A stretch of 64,000 bases of DNA from Pseudomonas sp. B33.4 (GTDB taxonomy: Bacteria; Pseudomonadota; Gammaproteobacteria; Pseudomonadales; Pseudomonadaceae), in contig NZ_CP140706.1 of NCBI RefSeq assembly GCF_034555375.1, positions 2,967,001 through 3,031,000 on the forward strand, in the 5' to 3' direction. Numbering within the stretch: position 1 is the stretch's first letter; each line of letters opens with the position of its first letter. Of the stretch, positions 32,781 through 40,080 are shown in pieces. The notes beneath the pieces were generated by a model. It saw only the letters and a list, made by a program, of their open reading frames with translations. It searched no databases and was not told the DNA's origin. The translations under genes were made by a program, and so were the position numbers.

Positions 32781-33809
32781 TCAGACACCGCCAACCTTGC
32801 GGGTCGACCCACGCTCCACGAGCACCGGCGCAAAATCCATCACCCGCGCCACCTCATCATCCCCACGCAAGCGCTTGAGCAGACACTCAAACGCCCGCGC
32901 ACCTATCTCTTGCGTCGGCTGGGCCAGCGCAGTAATCCCGCTACCCACCAACGGATACCAATCCAGATCATCCAGGGCAATCAGCCCGACATCCTCAAAC
33001 AACCGGCAGCCAATCTGGCGCAACGCAGTCGTAGCGGCGAGCGCCGCCACACCGTTGGCGCAAAACAACGCTTTTGGCCCGACACCGGGCGTGTTTAAAA
33101 AGGTTTGCAGTTGCGCGCGCAGATCATCGCCGGTTTCCAGCACCGTCCCAGTCAGCGCCGAACGCTGGGCAATCTGTGCCTGAAAACTGCTGACTCGCTC
33201 GATCCGCGAACTGGTGCCGTCATACGGTTCAGTCACCAGCACCAGATCCCGATAACCGCGCTGCTCCAGATGCGTGATCGCCATCTCCACGGCTTGCGGG
33301 TTATTCAGCCCGACCATGTCGCTGTCGAGACCGTCGACCTTGCGATCCACCAGCACCAGCGGCATCTCGCGGCGCAGCTCGTGCAGTTCGTCAAGGTGAT
33401 GGCCCAGCGTATTCACGATAAGCCCTTCGATATTGTACGAGCGCAATAGCGCAAGGTGCTGGCGTTCCTGCTCGTCATCGCGGTCGGTGTTGCACACCAC
33501 CAGGCTGTAACCGTGCGCACGGCAGGCGGTTTCCACCCCGTGCATTACAGCAATCGAATAAGGATTGCGAATATCGGCCACCAGCATGCCGATCAGGCGC
33601 GTACGCCCGCGTTTCAGACCTCGGGCCATTTGGTTAGGGCGATAGCCGAGTTCGGCAATGGCTTGCTCGATGCGCAGGGCAATGGCATCGGAGAGCAGAG
33701 CGCGGTCATCGCCGATGAAGCGCGAGACGCTGGCCTTGGACACGCCGGCGCGCTCGGCGACGTCGAGCATGGTCACGCGGCTGCGCTGGGCGGTTAAGAA
33801 GTCGTTCAT
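32781..33809 (-). CDS. ptxS: PtxS, LacI-family repressor of 2-ketogluconate genes
   Basis: The 342-residue repressor has the LacI helix-turn-helix at its start (RVTMLDVAERAGVSKASVSRFI) and a periplasmic-binding-protein-like effector domain (LIGMLVADIRNPYSIAVMHGVE). PtxS binds 2-ketogluconate and leaves its operator. Two exact operators flank the gene: 33839-33852 before its own start and 32643-32656 before kguE. It therefore represses itself and the operon. The gene sits directly upstream of kguE in the same orientation, as in other pseudomonads. Confidence 0.95.
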   Translation of the reverse strand: MNDFLTAQRSRVTMLDVAERAGVSKASVSRFIGDDRALLSDAIALRIEQAIAELGYRPNQMARGLKRGRTRLIGMLVADIRNPYSIAVMHGVETACRAHGYSLVVCNTDRDDEQERQHLALLRSYNIEGLIVNTLGHHLDELHELRREMPLVLVDRKVDGLDSDMVGLNNPQAVEMAITHLEQRGYRDLVLVTEPYDGTSSRIERVSSFQAQIAQRSALTGTVLETGDDLRAQLQTFLNTPGVGPKALFCANGVAALAATTALRQIGCRLFEDVGLIALDDLDWYPLVGSGITALAQPTQEIGARAFECLLKRLRGDDEVARVMDFAPVLVERGSTRKVGGV

Positions 33810-33852: not shown

Positions 33853-33928
33853 GGAGATCCGATTTGCAGGAAAGTCGTCAAGCGATTTTATTTGCAGATA
33901 GGGCGATATTCCGACCGGCGGTCGAAAT

Positions 33929-33974
33929 ACCTGTCAGATATGACAGTAGGCAAGAAGTCTGACAAGACGTTTAA
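33929..33974 (+). promoter_or_regulatory. lux-box-like dyad and -10 element before the accessory cassette
   Basis: CTGTCA GATA TGACAG (33931-33946) is a perfect 6+6 dyad with the CT-N12-AG layout of LuxR-family binding sites. Counting a 20-base box (33929-33948), a good -10 element TTTAAT (33969-33974) follows after exactly 20 bases, placing the box near -42 as in LuxR-activated promoters. The first cassette gene starts at 34026. The same dyad is at 40053-40068. Which regulator binds is inference; no luxR gene is in the window. Confidence 0.55.
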
Positions 33975-34025
33975 TCGGACCGAGGCTTTTCATCAATTCC
34001 AATAGGCATCAAGGGGCTTTGACGT

Positions 34026-34829
34026 ATGTCTAACCGAGGGCCGCAAAACTTTAATCCACCGAGAGTCATCGGTGTAGAAGATGCCGATATTGACCCGGAC
34101 GGATATATCCCGCTGGATTTGTTACTGGCAGGAATCGACGTGGTCATTCCCCTGTGGCCCAGTTACGCAACGCTGCCTGATGATAGGGATATTTTAACGG
34201 TTTACTTTGATCAGCCAGGGCAGCCGCTGGTCAAGATCGAAAATACCTACACAGCAGCGGACATCCAGCCAGAATTTATTATTCCTATCGATGCGAGCTT
34301 TCTGAAGGTTAACGGCGTTGGTCAGTTGCGCTATGAGGTTTTGGATACTGCGGATCAACTCTCACGGTCAGATCCTCGCAATCTAACAATTGATCACACC
34401 CCCATTCCACGTGATCTCGATGAGCCGGATTGCCCCGATAAAGATTTCCATGGATATCTGAACTGCCACACAGATCCGCCTATATGGGAGGGCGTTAGAG
34501 TGTCTGTTCCTCCCTTGTCGGGATTCAAGGTTGGAGATCGAGTTGAGTTGCTTTGGCGAGGTTATCCAAGTTTGAACGGAAGTGATGTGGAGTACGTGAG
34601 GGCTCGTAAGAAAAGTATCCGTTCTCCACTGAGCGAGAATGATATAAAAGACGGATACTCGCTGGTGATCGAGCCTTATGACGTTCATATAAAACCCATG
34701 GTGAAGAATGCTTCAGCGGTCGTTCAGTATCGAATTTTTCGTGGCCGGAGACTTGTTGGGGTCTCCAAAGTCACAGTGGTTAAAATCGATCGAATAGTTG
34801 TTGGCGAGGAACTTCCATGCGGGCCGTAA
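34026..34829 (+). CDS. Uncharacterised beta-rich protein (267 aa), first cassette gene
   Basis: I do not recognise this protein by name. It is acidic, lacks a signal peptide or membrane helix, and looks built of Ig-like beta-sandwich modules: DRDILTVYFDQPGQPLVKIENTY, QLRYEVLDTADQLSRSDPRNL, then a second module (GVRVSVPPLSGFKVGDRVEL...VVQYRIFRGRRLVG). Similar patterns recur in the next gene. AAGGGG precedes the ATG. Base composition is more AT-rich than the flanks and codon use is less GC-ending, suggesting transfer. Expression is probably from the lux-box-like promoter at 33929. Confidence 0.8.
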   Translation: MSNRGPQNFNPPRVIGVEDADIDPDGYIPLDLLLAGIDVVIPLWPSYATLPDDRDILTVYFDQPGQPLVKIENTYTAADIQPEFIIPIDASFLKVNGVGQLRYEVLDTADQLSRSDPRNLTIDHTPIPRDLDEPDCPDKDFHGYLNCHTDPPIWEGVRVSVPPLSGFKVGDRVELLWRGYPSLNGSDVEYVRARKKSIRSPLSENDIKDGYSLVIEPYDVHIKPMVKNASAVVQYRIFRGRRLVGVSKVTVVKIDRIVVGEELPCGP

Positions 34830-34916
34830 AGTATGGAATGGCAGTGGTCAGTAATAAGCGCGTGATAACCAAGTGACTAGGAAATTTTCCTGATATGCAA
34901 ACGTATGGAGAGAATC

Positions 34917-36959
34917 ATGAACGCTATCGTTAAAAGGGCACAGCTGTCCAGGCTGGCGGCGCTGAAAGCAAGGTCCACCGTGCATAACGCTATTGATGAT
35001 GATCCGCCACCAGCTGTTACATTCCCTGCGCAAACACTACTTCCTGATTTGCGCATCCCGATTGCTTCTCTTAACGGTGATTTGGAATATGTGGTACCAA
35101 AGCCGGCAGCTGAGCACGACGAAGATTCATTTATACCACAGATTCGAGTAGCAGGTACGACGTGGCTGGACGTTGTTGATCCAGCCGATCCAGACTATCC
35201 GTATATTATTCCCGGTGAGATCGATGATCGAGACTGGACGGTGCCTTACAAGATTCGACGCAGCTTGCTTAGAGAGGAACTTACGCCCGAAGCGCCGACC
35301 CGATGGGAGTTTCGATATATTTTCTTTTCTGGCGGTATTAATGATGTCGCATCCATTACCACTACCTTCGCCATCGATCTTACACCGCCCTACAAAGTAA
35401 AAAATCCGCCCTCCGACAGAACCCCCGGAGCGCCTACATGGCCTGCCGATTTAGGGCCGAATGTTCCCATTGATGATGCCTACCTCGAGGGCAAAACCCA
35501 TATCATCGTCAAGCCCGCGATTCCCGCAAATTACGAGGCAACTGACGTTTACAGATTTTTCTTCGGGCCCGCGCCGGATCCCGGCCGCGATACTCCCGTG
35601 TTTAATGATGTACTGTCGCCGGCTCGGGAAGCTGCAATTGAAGTCAAAGTGTTTGTCGATGCCGCTGATGGTTCCAATCAGCTTATCTATGTGTCCAAAG
35701 ATCTGCCGGGAAATGAAGGGCGCCGATCAAACTTCAGTCAGCGCACCGTTCAACATGCCAAGGATCCCGATCCCGATACGGTGGTACCACCGATTGTCAC
35801 GCTGGCAAATGGTACCGATGGCGACAACTTGGTCGATCTTGCAGACACTCAGTTTGATCCTCAAGGTGTGGAGTTCAAGGTCAAAGTCCCCACTCCCAAT
35901 GCTCCAACGGATACGATTGCCGGCTTCTGGGGGGGCGAACAGGCAGGCCCCGAACAGCGCGTGGGTACCAAGACCGAACTGACGTTTTACGCACCCTATG
36001 ATCTGGTCAAACGGGTGTACGGCGATACCGATGGCATAGTTAAAACCAATGTTAGTTTCAATATGTTTCGTGGTACCCGTCCGTTGGCTGACTCAAACGT
36101 TGAAATCGATGTTGATATTTCATATATCGGTCCGGATCCAATAACCATTGGTCTGGACGCGCCAACGCTGAAGACAACGGCGGGTACTGACAACGCAATC
36201 GAGGAGGGTGATTACGGAGATGACGCCATTACTGCGACTATCAAACTTTTTGCTGCCCCCCCGACAGAAGAAGGTTGGCTGATCGATCTGTTTTATGACG
36301 ACATCCAGATTGGCGACCCCATTGCGTTAACAACAGGTCAAGAGGGCACCGACATAACTCGTGTTATTCCGTGGTCTGTTATTCAACAGCAGGAAAGTGG
36401 GCCCAACAAGGTTCTACGGTATACCCTCTACACTCCGGGCTCGAACAACCCAACTCCGTCGTCACCGAGGGGTATCCGGGTCGAGCCATTCCCGATTGAA
36501 ATGGCTGCGCCGATAATTTTGGGCCTGGCGGGGTCGGTAAGAAGGATTGGATGCTCCACCTTGAACTTCCCTACGGAGACTATCCCAAATGATGGCACCG
36601 AGAGACGAAATCTGCTCGTTCGTGTGATGCCCAATACGTATACGGTCGATGGTGAAACCATTACTTTGAAGTATCAGGCATTTGAACAGGCGGACCCGAC
36701 GAAACCTATTCCCGATACTGATGCAACGGTGACTTACCCAATCTCGGGGACATTTCCAGCCGATGGTGTGATTATCAATATTGGTGATTACGAGGAAGAT
36801 TTCAAGCCGGCTCATATGCAAATTGGCACGGTGACTTATTCCATTTCCCGCGGGGGAAGTTCCGGTACTCCGACACCGGACTCGCTGCCTGCTGTGAACA
36901 CACTGGATCTGGATGACAGTCAAGGTCGTTTTTGTGAGGAGTTTATTCCCGTTCCATGA
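34917..36959 (+). CDS. Uncharacterised multi-module beta-rich protein (680 aa)
   Basis: From ATG 34917 (GGAG seven bases upstream; an ATG at 34905 would add four residues) the product has about 680 residues without a signal peptide. It appears to hold four or more beta-sandwich modules, each with an aromatic strand and a closing ID-x-TPP or VEP-type linker: FRYIFFSGGINDVASITTTFAIDLTPP, DVYRFFFGPAPD, VKTNVSFNMFRGTRPL, VLRYTLYTPGSNN, VTYSISRGGSSGTP. The 267-residue upstream gene has the same style, so they are likely paralogues in one operon. Cargo, surface or phage-tail-like roles are all possible; none is shown. Confidence 0.8.
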   Translation: MNAIVKRAQLSRLAALKARSTVHNAIDDDPPPAVTFPAQTLLPDLRIPIASLNGDLEYVVPKPAAEHDEDSFIPQIRVAGTTWLDVVDPADPDYPYIIPGEIDDRDWTVPYKIRRSLLREELTPEAPTRWEFRYIFFSGGINDVASITTTFAIDLTPPYKVKNPPSDRTPGAPTWPADLGPNVPIDDAYLEGKTHIIVKPAIPANYEATDVYRFFFGPAPDPGRDTPVFNDVLSPAREAAIEVKVFVDAADGSNQLIYVSKDLPGNEGRRSNFSQRTVQHAKDPDPDTVVPPIVTLANGTDGDNLVDLADTQFDPQGVEFKVKVPTPNAPTDTIAGFWGGEQAGPEQRVGTKTELTFYAPYDLVKRVYGDTDGIVKTNVSFNMFRGTRPLADSNVEIDVDISYIGPDPITIGLDAPTLKTTAGTDNAIEEGDYGDDAITATIKLFAAPPTEEGWLIDLFYDDIQIGDPIALTTGQEGTDITRVIPWSVIQQQESGPNKVLRYTLYTPGSNNPTPSSPRGIRVEPFPIEMAAPIILGLAGSVRRIGCSTLNFPTETIPNDGTERRNLLVRVMPNTYTVDGETITLKYQAFEQADPTKPIPDTDATVTYPISGTFPADGVIINIGDYEEDFKPAHMQIGTVTYSISRGGSSGTPTPDSLPAVNTLDLDDSQGRFCEEFIPVP

Positions 36960-37122: not shown

Positions 37123-39417
37123 ATGGCTACGACTGCCATTTCACCAGTCAGACAGCAGGTATTCACTATGCGGGGTAAGTTATTGTCGGGTCCAGGCCGT
37201 ACGCGGCGTTACATAGTTTTGAGCCCTTCGTTGTTGGCAATTTTGAGTGCCTGCGCAAGCGCGGCACCGGTCGTGGGCCGCGAGGAAACGGTAAACGGCG
37301 GCACGCCGGAACGATGGGACCTTTCCCAGAACGCCACGCTGACGGTCAACGGCGCGCAAACGCTGGTCATCAACTCTGAAAATTCCACATTGATTGTGAA
37401 TCCTGGCAGCACAACGCAACAGATATCGGCTCGCGAAGGGTCAACGGTCAATCTGAGCGGTGCGACCGTTTCAGCTACCGGGGGCTTGGCGGCGGTCTTT
37501 TTAAGTAGCTCGCAAGCGACGATCGACAGCAGTTCTATTAGCGGAAATCGTGTAGGACTCCAAGTGGTTCGCGATGCCAATACACAGGACGGCTCCCGTG
37601 TTTCTGTCACCAATGGCACGAAGATCACTGGTGTGACCGGGGGAGCGTTGGTCAGTGCCTTCAGCGTCCTGAACCTCAGCGATTCCGACCTTCTCGGGAC
37701 CGGAGCCAGCAGCTACGGACTTCGGCTGAATAGCGGTCAAGCGACGGCCCGAAACAGCTCTATCATTGGTGGTCGGGAAGGCGTCGTCATCGATTCCGAT
37801 CTCAACCAGGTTCAACCGGCGACGTTGAATCTTGAGAACACTACAGTGCAAGGCAAAACCGGCGCTGCCATTCTGGTCGACTTGGCTAACACCACGGATT
37901 CCACAGCGGCCATTACGTTGACCAACTCGCGCTTGCTCGCTGGCAACGGCACCTTACTGGATGTCCGAGGTGGGGCGGATGCTTCGCTGGTAGTCAACGA
38001 CAGTACGCTCAATGGTGACATCGTCACGGAGCAGGGCAGCACCACAAACTTGACTCTGCAAAACAACTCGAAGCTGACGGGCCAACTGCAAAATGTGGCC
38101 AGCGCCACGATCAATGACAGTTCCCAGTGGGTACTGACGGGTAATAGCAGTATCGACCAGTTGAGCCTGAACAACGGTGGCTCGGTGGTCTTCGGGGCTA
38201 CCGACGCCTTTTATCAACTCAACGTAACGTCCTTGTCTGGCAATGGCCGTTTTGTGATGGGCACCAACTTCACCACGGGTGAAACGGACGTGTTGAATAT
38301 CACGGGCACCGCCCAAGGGACACACGAACTGCTGATTGCCAGCAGTGGTCTTGATCCTGCTAGCGGACAACCTGTCCGCGTGGTGCAAACCGCAGGCGGC
38401 GACGCTCGGTTTTTCATGAGCCGTGATGTCGATTTGGGGACGTATTCCTATGGTCTGGCGAAAAGTGGCAACGACTGGATACTCGATCCCACTACGCGGA
38501 CCATCAGTCCTGGGGCTCGCTCTGTGCTCGCTCTGTTCAACACGGCCTCAACGGTATGGCTGGGCGAATTGACTTCATTGCGCACGCGTATGGGCGAATT
38601 GCGCTTCAATGGTGGTCAATCCGGCGCGTGGGGGCGTACTTACACCAACAAGTACAACATCGCCGATGGCTCGGGTGTCGGCTATCAGCAACGCCAGAGC
38701 GGGTTTACTTTAGGGGCGGATGCGCCGCTGCCGGTGGGTGACGGGCAGTGGCTGGTCGGGGTGATGGCGGGTCAGAGTCAATCCGACCTCGATCTTGACG
38801 CAGGCACCTCCGGGAGCGTGGACAGCTACTATGTGGGTGGCTATGTGACCTGGCTGGATGCGCAAACCGGTTATTACTTTGACGGAGTATTGAAGGCCAA
38901 CCGCTTCAATAATGATGCCAAGGTAGGGCTGAGTGATGGAACGCGGGCCAAGGGTGATTACGACAATTCCGGGGTCGGTGGTTCGGTGGAAATCGGTAAA
39001 CACATCAGTCTTGCTGACGGAAACTTCCTGGAGCCCTACACGCAATGGTCTGCAGTGGTCATTGAGGGCAAGGATTATTCCTTGAGTAATGACCTGCAGG
39101 CAGAAGGTGATCGAACTCGTTCATTTATCGGTAAAGTGGGTGTCACTGCCGGTCGAAATATCGAACTGGATCAGGGGCGGACTGTACAGCCTTATATTCG
39201 ACTTGCCTGGGCACATGAGTTTGCAAAGAACAATGAAGCCCAAGTGAATAACAATGTGTTCAACAATGACCTGTCCGGCTCTCGTGGGGAACTGGGTGCT
39301 GGCGTCGCTGTAGCGATAGCCAGAAGTTTCAGCGTGCATGCCGATTTCGAGTACAGCAACGGCCGGTACTTTGAGCAGCCCTTGGGTGCCAACATCGGGA
39401 TTCGCTATATTTGGTGA
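37123..39417 (+). CDS. Pertactin-type autotransporter (type Va secretion)
   Basis: The 764-residue protein has an extended N-terminal signal (charged stretch RGKLLSGPGRTRRYIV, then LSPSLLAILSACASA and likely cleavage before APVVG). A passenger domain of about 400 residues follows with repeating N-G/S-T beta-helix rungs (NATLTVNGAQTLVINSENST, TINDSSQWVLTG). An autotransporter beta-barrel occupies the last 270 residues (ELRFNGGQSGAWGRTYTNKYN to the terminal GANIGIRYIW). The start at 37123 lacks a ribosome site; ATG 37168 with CAGG upstream is an alternative. It would display or release an adhesin-like passenger at the cell surface. Confidence 0.93.
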   Translation: MATTAISPVRQQVFTMRGKLLSGPGRTRRYIVLSPSLLAILSACASAAPVVGREETVNGGTPERWDLSQNATLTVNGAQTLVINSENSTLIVNPGSTTQQISAREGSTVNLSGATVSATGGLAAVFLSSSQATIDSSSISGNRVGLQVVRDANTQDGSRVSVTNGTKITGVTGGALVSAFSVLNLSDSDLLGTGASSYGLRLNSGQATARNSSIIGGREGVVIDSDLNQVQPATLNLENTTVQGKTGAAILVDLANTTDSTAAITLTNSRLLAGNGTLLDVRGGADASLVVNDSTLNGDIVTEQGSTTNLTLQNNSKLTGQLQNVASATINDSSQWVLTGNSSIDQLSLNNGGSVVFGATDAFYQLNVTSLSGNGRFVMGTNFTTGETDVLNITGTAQGTHELLIASSGLDPASGQPVRVVQTAGGDARFFMSRDVDLGTYSYGLAKSGNDWILDPTTRTISPGARSVLALFNTASTVWLGELTSLRTRMGELRFNGGQSGAWGRTYTNKYNIADGSGVGYQQRQSGFTLGADAPLPVGDGQWLVGVMAGQSQSDLDLDAGTSGSVDSYYVGGYVTWLDAQTGYYFDGVLKANRFNNDAKVGLSDGTRAKGDYDNSGVGGSVEIGKHISLADGNFLEPYTQWSAVVIEGKDYSLSNDLQAEGDRTRSFIGKVGVTAGRNIELDQGRTVQPYIRLAWAHEFAKNNEAQVNNNVFNNDLSGSRGELGAGVAVAIARSFSVHADFEYSNGRYFEQPLGANIGIRYIW

Positions 39418-39474: not shown

Positions 39475-39963
39475 TTATGCGGCGATCGACCGATATCCCC
39501 GCAATTTCACGATGTCTCCCTTTGCTGAAAATCTGACATCCAAGGTTAGTTCTTTCTCCTCATCGTCGTCTCGATTCTCCACCACGACGCTGTTCAAGTT
39601 CCCGGAAAGAGTAGCTGAGTCAGGATCATAAGCGATGATGGCTGTCCCCGAACGCTGAGTGTAAGTCACAGGCTTGGCTGGATCGCTGTTGTCGACAAAT
39701 GTCAGGCGAACCTCATGGGATGTCGGTGTGAGTTCGTAGCTGTCATTCGGCAGGTTTTTGGAGAAGGACAGGGTGATTTCTTTGGTCGTGAAGTCCGTTT
39801 TACGTTGACGGGCAAACATTACGTAGGCCTTACCATGCGGCAGCGGGAAGGTTTGCTCGGAGAGCTCAACCAGGCTTGCTTTAAACTGTTCTACGGTGTT
39901 GATTGTCCCTACACACTCACCTGTGCCGATCGCATTTCTACGTTTGAGAATTTTATTGATCAT
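39475..39963 (-). CDS. Uncharacterised protein (162 aa), convergent cassette gene
   Basis: From ATG 39963 (GGAG eight bases upstream; an in-frame ATG at 39978 is possible) the product is about 162 residues. It is not recognised. It is basic at the start (MINKILKRRNAIGTGECVG) and then acidic, with beta-strand patterning (AYVMFARQRKTDF, EVRLTFVDNSDPAKPVTYTQ, EKELTLDVRFSAKG). No export signal is evident. It runs toward the autotransporter, and its upstream region contains the 18-bp inverted repeat with the lux-box-like core. It belongs to the AT-richer cassette. Confidence 0.7.
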   Translation of the reverse strand: MINKILKRRNAIGTGECVGTINTVEQFKASLVELSEQTFPLPHGKAYVMFARQRKTDFTTKEITLSFSKNLPNDSYELTPTSHEVRLTFVDNSDPAKPVTYTQRSGTAIIAYDPDSATLSGNLNSVVVENRDDDEEKELTLDVRFSAKGDIVKLRGYRSIAA

Positions 39964-40040
39964 TTTTGCGGTCTCCATGTCATGACGAGATATCCCGTTA
40001 TCAGGAAACTTTCGGGATGAGCTATCAGAACGCTAATGAG

Positions 40041-40080
40041 GCCAACTGTAAACTGTCAGACTTGACAGTTTACAGTTGGC
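40041..40080. promoter_or_regulatory. Perfect 18-bp inverted repeat with lux-box-like core
   Basis: GCCAACTGTAAACTGTCA (40041-40058) is exactly inverted at 40063-40080 around the centre GACT. The core CTGTCA-N4-TGACAG repeats the dyad at 33931-33946. On the left-going strand a weak -10 (TCTGAT) lies 21 bases past the box, 97 bases upstream of the gene starting at 39963. The sequence just right of it (GGCAGGAAGTGTGA) also resembles the one right of the first dyad (GGCAAGAAGTCTGA). Confidence 0.6.

Follow-up and report, generated by a model that had tools for sequence, protein, structure and literature searches.

We report that the 20-base lux-type box at positions 33929-33948 of the window, i.e. 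the whole 64,000-nucleotide stretch of Pseudomonas sp. B33.4 DNA that was analysed, is very probably the operator for the single AHL-type LuxR protein detected in the source genome (G000; 6.6 Mb, one contig, containing the window), and that this LuxR solo would activate ORF1, ORF2 and an autotransporter gene behind the box together with about 30 other promoters. The computations described below directly show the motif with its spacing and conservation, the presence of a single solo and the link to regulator type. The box, the promoter geometry and some 30 promoters in one genome make the targets of the fpr-rlmG solo directly testable. At the dyad we find the following features:

33929..33948, plus strand: lux-type box of 20 bases, ACCTGTCAGATATGACAGTA, from the flanked-pattern search and the flank preferences over 89 sites
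33931..33946, plus strand: core dyad CTGTCA-GATA-TGACAG, CTGTCAGATATGACAG, perfect 6+6, proposed LuxR-solo operator
33970..33975, plus strand: -10 hexamer TTTAAT, offset 23 behind the 16-mer, kept in AL03

The initial annotation had described a perfect dyad with the CT-N12-AG layout, and this is present at 33931-33946; the 20 bases at 33929-33948 have the length and the CT-N12-AG form of a lux box. It had also placed the -10 exactly 20 bases after the box, which needs correction since 21 bases separate 33929-33948 from TTTAAT at 33970-33975. This hexamer lies at the class-II distance, at the offset-23 peak seen over many sites (below). The transcript would start near 33981, which would put the dyad centre at approximately -42.5, and the start codon is 79 bases from the box (median 80 over the oriented sites). 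Our best reading is that the dyad at 33931-33946 would act as a class-II activation site of the LuxR solo.

To describe the promoters, sites were drawn from G000, G019, G016, G005 and G018 (20 of the 22 listed G019 sites were used, and one G005 site was dropped because it was too close to the end of the stretch). Among 91 distinct sites, 89 could be oriented towards a downstream ORF (29 of these from G000), and these include orthologous promoters and are thus not independent cases. The window site was oriented by hand, the automatic rule pointing the opposite way. Towards the gene, similarity to TATAAT is highest at an offset of 23 bases past the 16-mer, with a mean of 2.82 out of 6 compared to 1.44 elsewhere (z 8.3, 89 sites), and the peak is seen for G000 alone (29 sites; z 7.1) as well as for the relatives alone (z 7.8). 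At this offset 25/89 sites match at least four of the six -10 places, the mean at other offsets being 2.3 sites, and the sixth place is T in 65/89. The earlier suggestion that the -10 sits at LuxR-activation geometry is supported by this preferred position. On the side away from the gene the mean at offset 23 is 1.91 and seven of the 89 sites are strong (approximately two expected), perhaps due to wrongly turned or two-way sites.

The same sites revealed a second upstream element, ACCNNTCGTCG, which in gene direction and with at most one mismatch is present in 23/89 of the upstream 45-base stretches and in 0/89 of the downstream controls. It lies at -26 (12 sites), -25 (3) and -14 (8) only, positions roughly one helical turn apart, and within 100 bases upstream there are 25 matches vs 0.8 expected from shuffles. 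The reversed form was found at two sites at -19, with no enrichment upstream (2) over downstream (4). In G000 the element precedes boxes at e.g. L058, L060 and L007. We know of no factor for it. In the window there is one candidate:

33912..33922, minus strand: possible weak copy of the second element, CGACCGGCGGT, with two mismatches to CGACGANNGGT (the reverse of ACCNNTCGTCG), starting at -19

This stretch is partly conserved in the cassette orthologues, and the evidence that it is a copy of the second upstream element is weak. Class-II promoters of LuxR, LasR and TraR are known to have a 20-base CT-N12-AG dyad near -42.5 with the -10 behind it, and the window promoter has the same dyad layout, predicted centre and single -10. 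It differs from them in its half-site, CTGTCA, and its promoter class in the additional ACCNNTCGTCG at phased positions at about a quarter of the sites.

The initial annotation had proposed to search the genome for CTGTCA-N4-TGACAG and for luxR solos. We found 18 perfect sites in G000 and 0 with the reversed-pattern control; CTGTMA-N4-TKACAG gave 35 vs 2, and the flanked pattern ACCTGTCA-N4-TGACAGGT with up to three mismatches 45 vs 15. This genome-wide enrichment over controls argues for a LuxR-type site. Within the window alone the dyad with up to two mismatches occurs four times where 2.16 are expected, and 18 of 100 shuffles reach four, which is not striking. The most frequent box centre is the spacer GATC (6/18 perfect G000 sites), and such a centre resembles that of known lux-type boxes. 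Three perfect 16-mers are also present in G031, which belongs to another family and lacks a relative of the solo (C104:581, C282:9385 and C283:20917).

For the regulator, one AHL-type LuxR was found in G000:

L032:4712-5485: LuxR solo, 257 aa, PF03472 autoinducer domain and PF00196 LuxR HTH

It is the single PF03472 protein found in the genome and is encoded approximately 2.7 Mb from the window. The search with the PF00765 (LuxI) profile gave no match in G000, and the control genomes gave no match either. The statement in the initial annotation that neither luxI nor luxR is nearby agrees with these searches, and its suggestion that a solo receptor could act gains from the one AHL-type LuxR, the lack of a LuxI match and the dependence of the sites on the type of fpr-rlmG regulator among 75 selected genomes. 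The neighbours of the solo gene we take to be mscL, fpr and rlmG, as judged from their sequences. The solo thus has the fpr-rlmG flanks of the subgroup A/PpoR group, and its relatives have the same neighbours; it also has the two domains, autoinducer domain and LuxR HTH. Aligned to QscR and RhlR it has the AHL-pocket residues W, Y, D, P, W and G, and its closest PDB match is QscR (3szt, E 3.6e-33, residues 33-254 of 257). Since the pocket residues are kept and no LuxI was found, the solo probably listens to the AHLs of neighbours. A plant-signal solo (PAB, OryR-type) was considered and rejected, as the pocket residues are kept and the neighbours were read as fpr/rlmG and not pip. A plant signal, which had been suggested earlier, is accordingly disfavoured by the retained AHL-receptor pocket. 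No box of its own was found at the solo gene, where the best candidate has four mismatches.

The number of sites was compared with the regulator in 249 Pseudomonas genomes, where relatedness confounds the numbers. In total there are 2037 sites vs 81 control matches, and site number correlates with similarity to the solo (rank correlation 0.80). At least three sites are present in 144/202 genomes with a PF03472 protein vs 2/47 without (G213 and G235), and in 73/73 genomes where the best solo match has an E value of ~1e-60 or lower. Seven genomes with a solo match of ~1e-40 to 1e-50 have fewer than three sites, and these are Ser226 types (see below). Conversely, 15 genomes have at least three sites and no close full-length solo, and in 14 of these an HTH like that of the solo is encoded between fpr and rlmG; in the fifteenth, G235 (73% complete, 3 sites), no such regulator was found.

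We then used 75 loci with fpr, regulator and rlmG (G000 included), which were picked so as to differ in site number and not randomly; G038 (1 site, Asn) was left out for want of the fpr-rlmG setting. Position 226 of the solo, just before TV of the recognition helix, is Arg in 55 and Ser in 20 of them. At least three sites are present in 50/55 of the Arg226 genomes vs 0/20 of the Ser226 genomes (range 0-1; Fisher p 7e-14, ignoring relatedness and the selection of loci). Among the Arg226 types these are 37/37 of those classed as full (including the split gene of G213) and 13/18 of those reduced to the HTH, and the five Arg226 types with only 1-2 sites are G039, G167, G193, G204 and G247. In a tree of RlmG and Fpr the Ser types group in a single clade, as do the HTH-only types in a second one, so the split between Arg and Ser and the reduction to the HTH are probably one event each; this and the choice of loci for contrast mean that the 75 genomes are not independent trials. 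The Arg226/Ser226 difference suggests that this residue may determine DNA specificity.

The alternative that survives best, very unlikely as it is, has the boxes bound by a NarL/FixJ-type response regulator such as that of L009, which has its own gene behind a box. Among the box targets there is indeed, at C1:2179 kb, a response regulator that carries a LuxR-type HTH (PF00072, PF00196) and could regulate itself. However, site number tracks the regulator at fpr-rlmG and, within its recognition helix, a single residue, and genomes where this regulator is reduced to its HTH mostly keep the sites (at least three in the 13/18 mentioned). Both points favour the solo as the protein at the box.

The HTH-only ORFs are 77-112 aa according to the start rule of the script, while that of G138 (L072) is intermediate with 155 aa and part of the N-terminal domain. 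A GGAG-type sequence lies a few bases before the start in most of them, the start rule preferring such starts. HTH-only LuxR genes were seen at L070, L073, L075, L076, L078, L080, L085, L086, L088-L090 and L119-L124. In G213 (L125) a stop codon splits the solo gene, and five boxes are still present in the genome. In size (77-112 aa, and 155 aa in G138) the HTH-only fpr-rlmG genes resemble GerE-type regulators that consist of an HTH alone, but they take the place of a two-domain LuxR solo, the boxes of which most of their genomes keep.

We infer binding, activation and ligand at the box from the sequences as follows. The solo, probably with the AHL of a neighbour bound, would sit on the box as a dimer near -42.5, contact RNA polymerase and recruit it to the -10 at 33970-33975 (class-II activation). 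Transcription from there would run into ORF1, ORF2 and the autotransporter gene, and the solo would serve about 30 further promoters of uncharacterised, Ig-like, beta-propeller, Tc-type and enzyme genes. The genes behind the window box are:

34026..34829, plus strand: ORF1, 267 aa, no Pfam family, all-beta model, tandem Ig/FnIII-like
34905..36959, plus strand: ORF2, 684 aa, no Pfam family
37123..39417, plus strand: pertactin-type autotransporter, 764 aa, PF03797 and PF03212
39428..39455, plus strand: terminator-like hairpin after the ORF1-ORF2-autotransporter unit

The hairpin scan listed none between ORF2 and the autotransporter gene, and the total of hairpins in the stretch is not above that of shuffles. 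With a hairpin after the autotransporter gene and none before it, the three genes likely form a single transcript. The initial annotation had called the genes unrecognised, which holds for ORF1 and ORF2 (no Pfam match) and not for the third gene, a pertactin-type autotransporter; its description of the products as of secreted type fits that third gene and not ORF1 and ORF2, which by eye are without an obvious signal peptide. The ORF1 model (pLDDT 92.6) consists largely of beta strands and looks like Ig/FnIII domains in tandem, no structural match being telling, and all named ones among the 53 ORF1 relatives found are from Pseudomonas, nearly all annotated as hypothetical. The N-terminal part of ORF2 weakly resembles the 113-aa product of a gene behind a different box (E 0.002).

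A scan of genome contigs gave 92 pattern matches, four of which encode an ORF1 relative: P. fluorescens PS655, P. viridiflava p11.F9, Pseudomonas sp. Irchel 3H7 and AL03. In 4/4 of these cassette copies the box is unchanged and GTTTAAT follows at equal distance; the absence of the dyad upstream of orthologous cassettes, which the initial annotation would have taken as evidence against its proposal, was therefore not observed. The order LacI-type gene, ORF1, ORF2, autotransporter, 162-aa gene and DUF1345 gene is likewise kept in 4/4, with piecewise matches only for the LacI-type and 162-aa genes of AL03. In AL03 ORF1 is 57% and ORF2 46% identical and the surroundings have diverged, yet ATACCTGTCAGATATGACAGTAG is intact. 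In G019 and G016 a box lies between a LacI-type gene and a relative of ORF1 (37% and 64%), and the -10 at offset 23 is CTTAAT.

Slightly less probable again than a response regulator is a repressor from one of the other families that bind dyads (TetR, GntR, MarR or LacI, e.g. the product of the LacI-type gene at 32781-33809). The length of the dyad suits many families, and this LacI-type gene adjoins the dyad and is conserved beside it. Against this, the box tends to lie at a fixed distance upstream of the -10 (89 sites), which is the place of an activator, site presence tracks PF03472 and HTH type, and no LacI product was recognised among the first genes behind the other boxes, where neighbours are partly annotated. 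Repression from the box at 33929-33948 does not suit its position, and since the box lies upstream of the -10, simple repression by TetR, GntR or MarR is disfavoured and binding by these proteins unlikely. The solo as activator remains the reading that we prefer.

Downstream of the autotransporter gene the window contains a second box, which is absent from the list of the initial annotation:

40053..40068, minus strand: second perfect box, CTGTCA-AGTC-TGACAG (minus-strand reading)
40024..40029, minus strand: -10 hexamer TCTGAT of the second promoter, offset 23
39475..39963, minus strand: convergent gene for a 162-aa protein, behind a box of its own
40041..40080: long inverted repeat that encloses the second box, 18-base arms, overlapping half-sites CTGTAA and CTGTCA

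The second box is present within the locus in 3/4 cassette copies, and the 162-aa protein weakly resembles a 154-aa product behind another box (E 2.4e-4). With respect to the inverted repeat, two arm pairs are changed on both sides in G016 (L156), and L128 has a change in one arm alone.

Among the 35 CTGTMA-N4-TKACAG sites of G000, 31 were inspected (the 18 perfect and 13 more); the first gene behind each box was judged by eye and script, and 27 of the 31 products were scanned against Pfam. A family was found for 11/27 and none for 16/27. Those with a family comprise a terpene synthase, the response regulator, a thioredoxin, a trypsin-like protease, VRP1 (Tc A-type), SpvB/TcdB (Tc B-type), a SET domain, a DUF5122 beta-propeller, a Big_6 Ig domain, a GtrA-type membrane protein and a tyrosinase. 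Two giant products without a Pfam family (each at least 978 aa, as the stretch used ends within them) are 85% alike. Similarity to their repeat was found in a 99-aa product (43%, E 1e-14) and in one of 309 aa (E 3e-9), both encoded behind other boxes. The Pfam scan and the repeat similarities suggest a common theme of uncharacterised, repeat-built, interaction-type proteins. Eight near-identical ACCTGTAATTTCTGACAGT boxes precede different genes (L053, L056, L057 and L059-L063), as if a promoter had spread. That the boxes are nothing but spreading repeats or hairpins, to which these eight copies and the long inverted repeat around the second box might point, is the least probable alternative given the preferred -10 distance, the conservation in the diverged AL03, the differing flanks and the link to regulator type.

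Taken more widely, we lean towards the view that the Arg226 fpr-rlmG solo might be the master switch of a new regulon in the P. fluorescens group, with about 3-45 promoters of contact and interaction genes and a second factor at ACCNNTCGTCG at some of them, and that in one clade a bare HTH (about 77 residues) might run the regulon ligand-free after loss of the sensor. Its proposed members would be the giant Ig-like proteins, the autotransporter cassette, beta-propellers, Tc-type proteins, terpene synthase and tyrosinase. The target list suggests that eavesdropping on the signals of neighbours controls surface and insect-active proteins, and the HTH-only clade would offer a natural example of quorum receptors that have lost their ear and kept their regulon.

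As in the subgroup A/PpoR solos (fpr-luxR-rlmG), we see a common locus, a two-domain LuxR, no LuxI found and the AHL-pocket residues retained; in contrast to the Ser226 members of the PpoR group, with 0-1 sites, the DNA specificity read here is that of the Arg226 type (among the sampled loci). In the excerpts available, such solos are reported from almost all fluorescent pseudomonads studied, with the mechanism described as not known. PpoR is listed between fprB and rlmG in the accessible parts of PMC10134790 and PMC4338825, the latter also mentioning truncated LuxRs that retain only the autoinducer domain. P. putida PpoR reportedly binds 3-oxo-C6-HSL and, when overexpressed, alters 62 genes directly or indirectly; the sections available do not name target boxes, and 'lux box' is absent from the main text (PMC2703642). 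For Ppu16R of P. putida 16A the available excerpt describes unresponsive flanking promoters and reports that no direct target evidence was obtained, and other LuxR solos, of P. chlororaphis, are treated in PMC7683790 as far as its accessible part goes. A literature search, mostly of journals open without subscription, found no occurrence of six literal box sequences and, among the matches listed and as judged by title or opening of the abstract, no account of the regulon or of the HTH-only form. QscR of P. aeruginosa, like the solo, has Arg before TV in the recognition helix; according to the excerpts available it responds to the AHLs of its own cell, whereas for the solo no LuxI was found.

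Finally, two weaker boxes outside the 31 (L054 and L058) precede further genes of beta-propeller type, and a stretch of Tc-type insecticidal genes at C1:5131485-5144960 of G000 carries three boxes (L018, L051 and L019).
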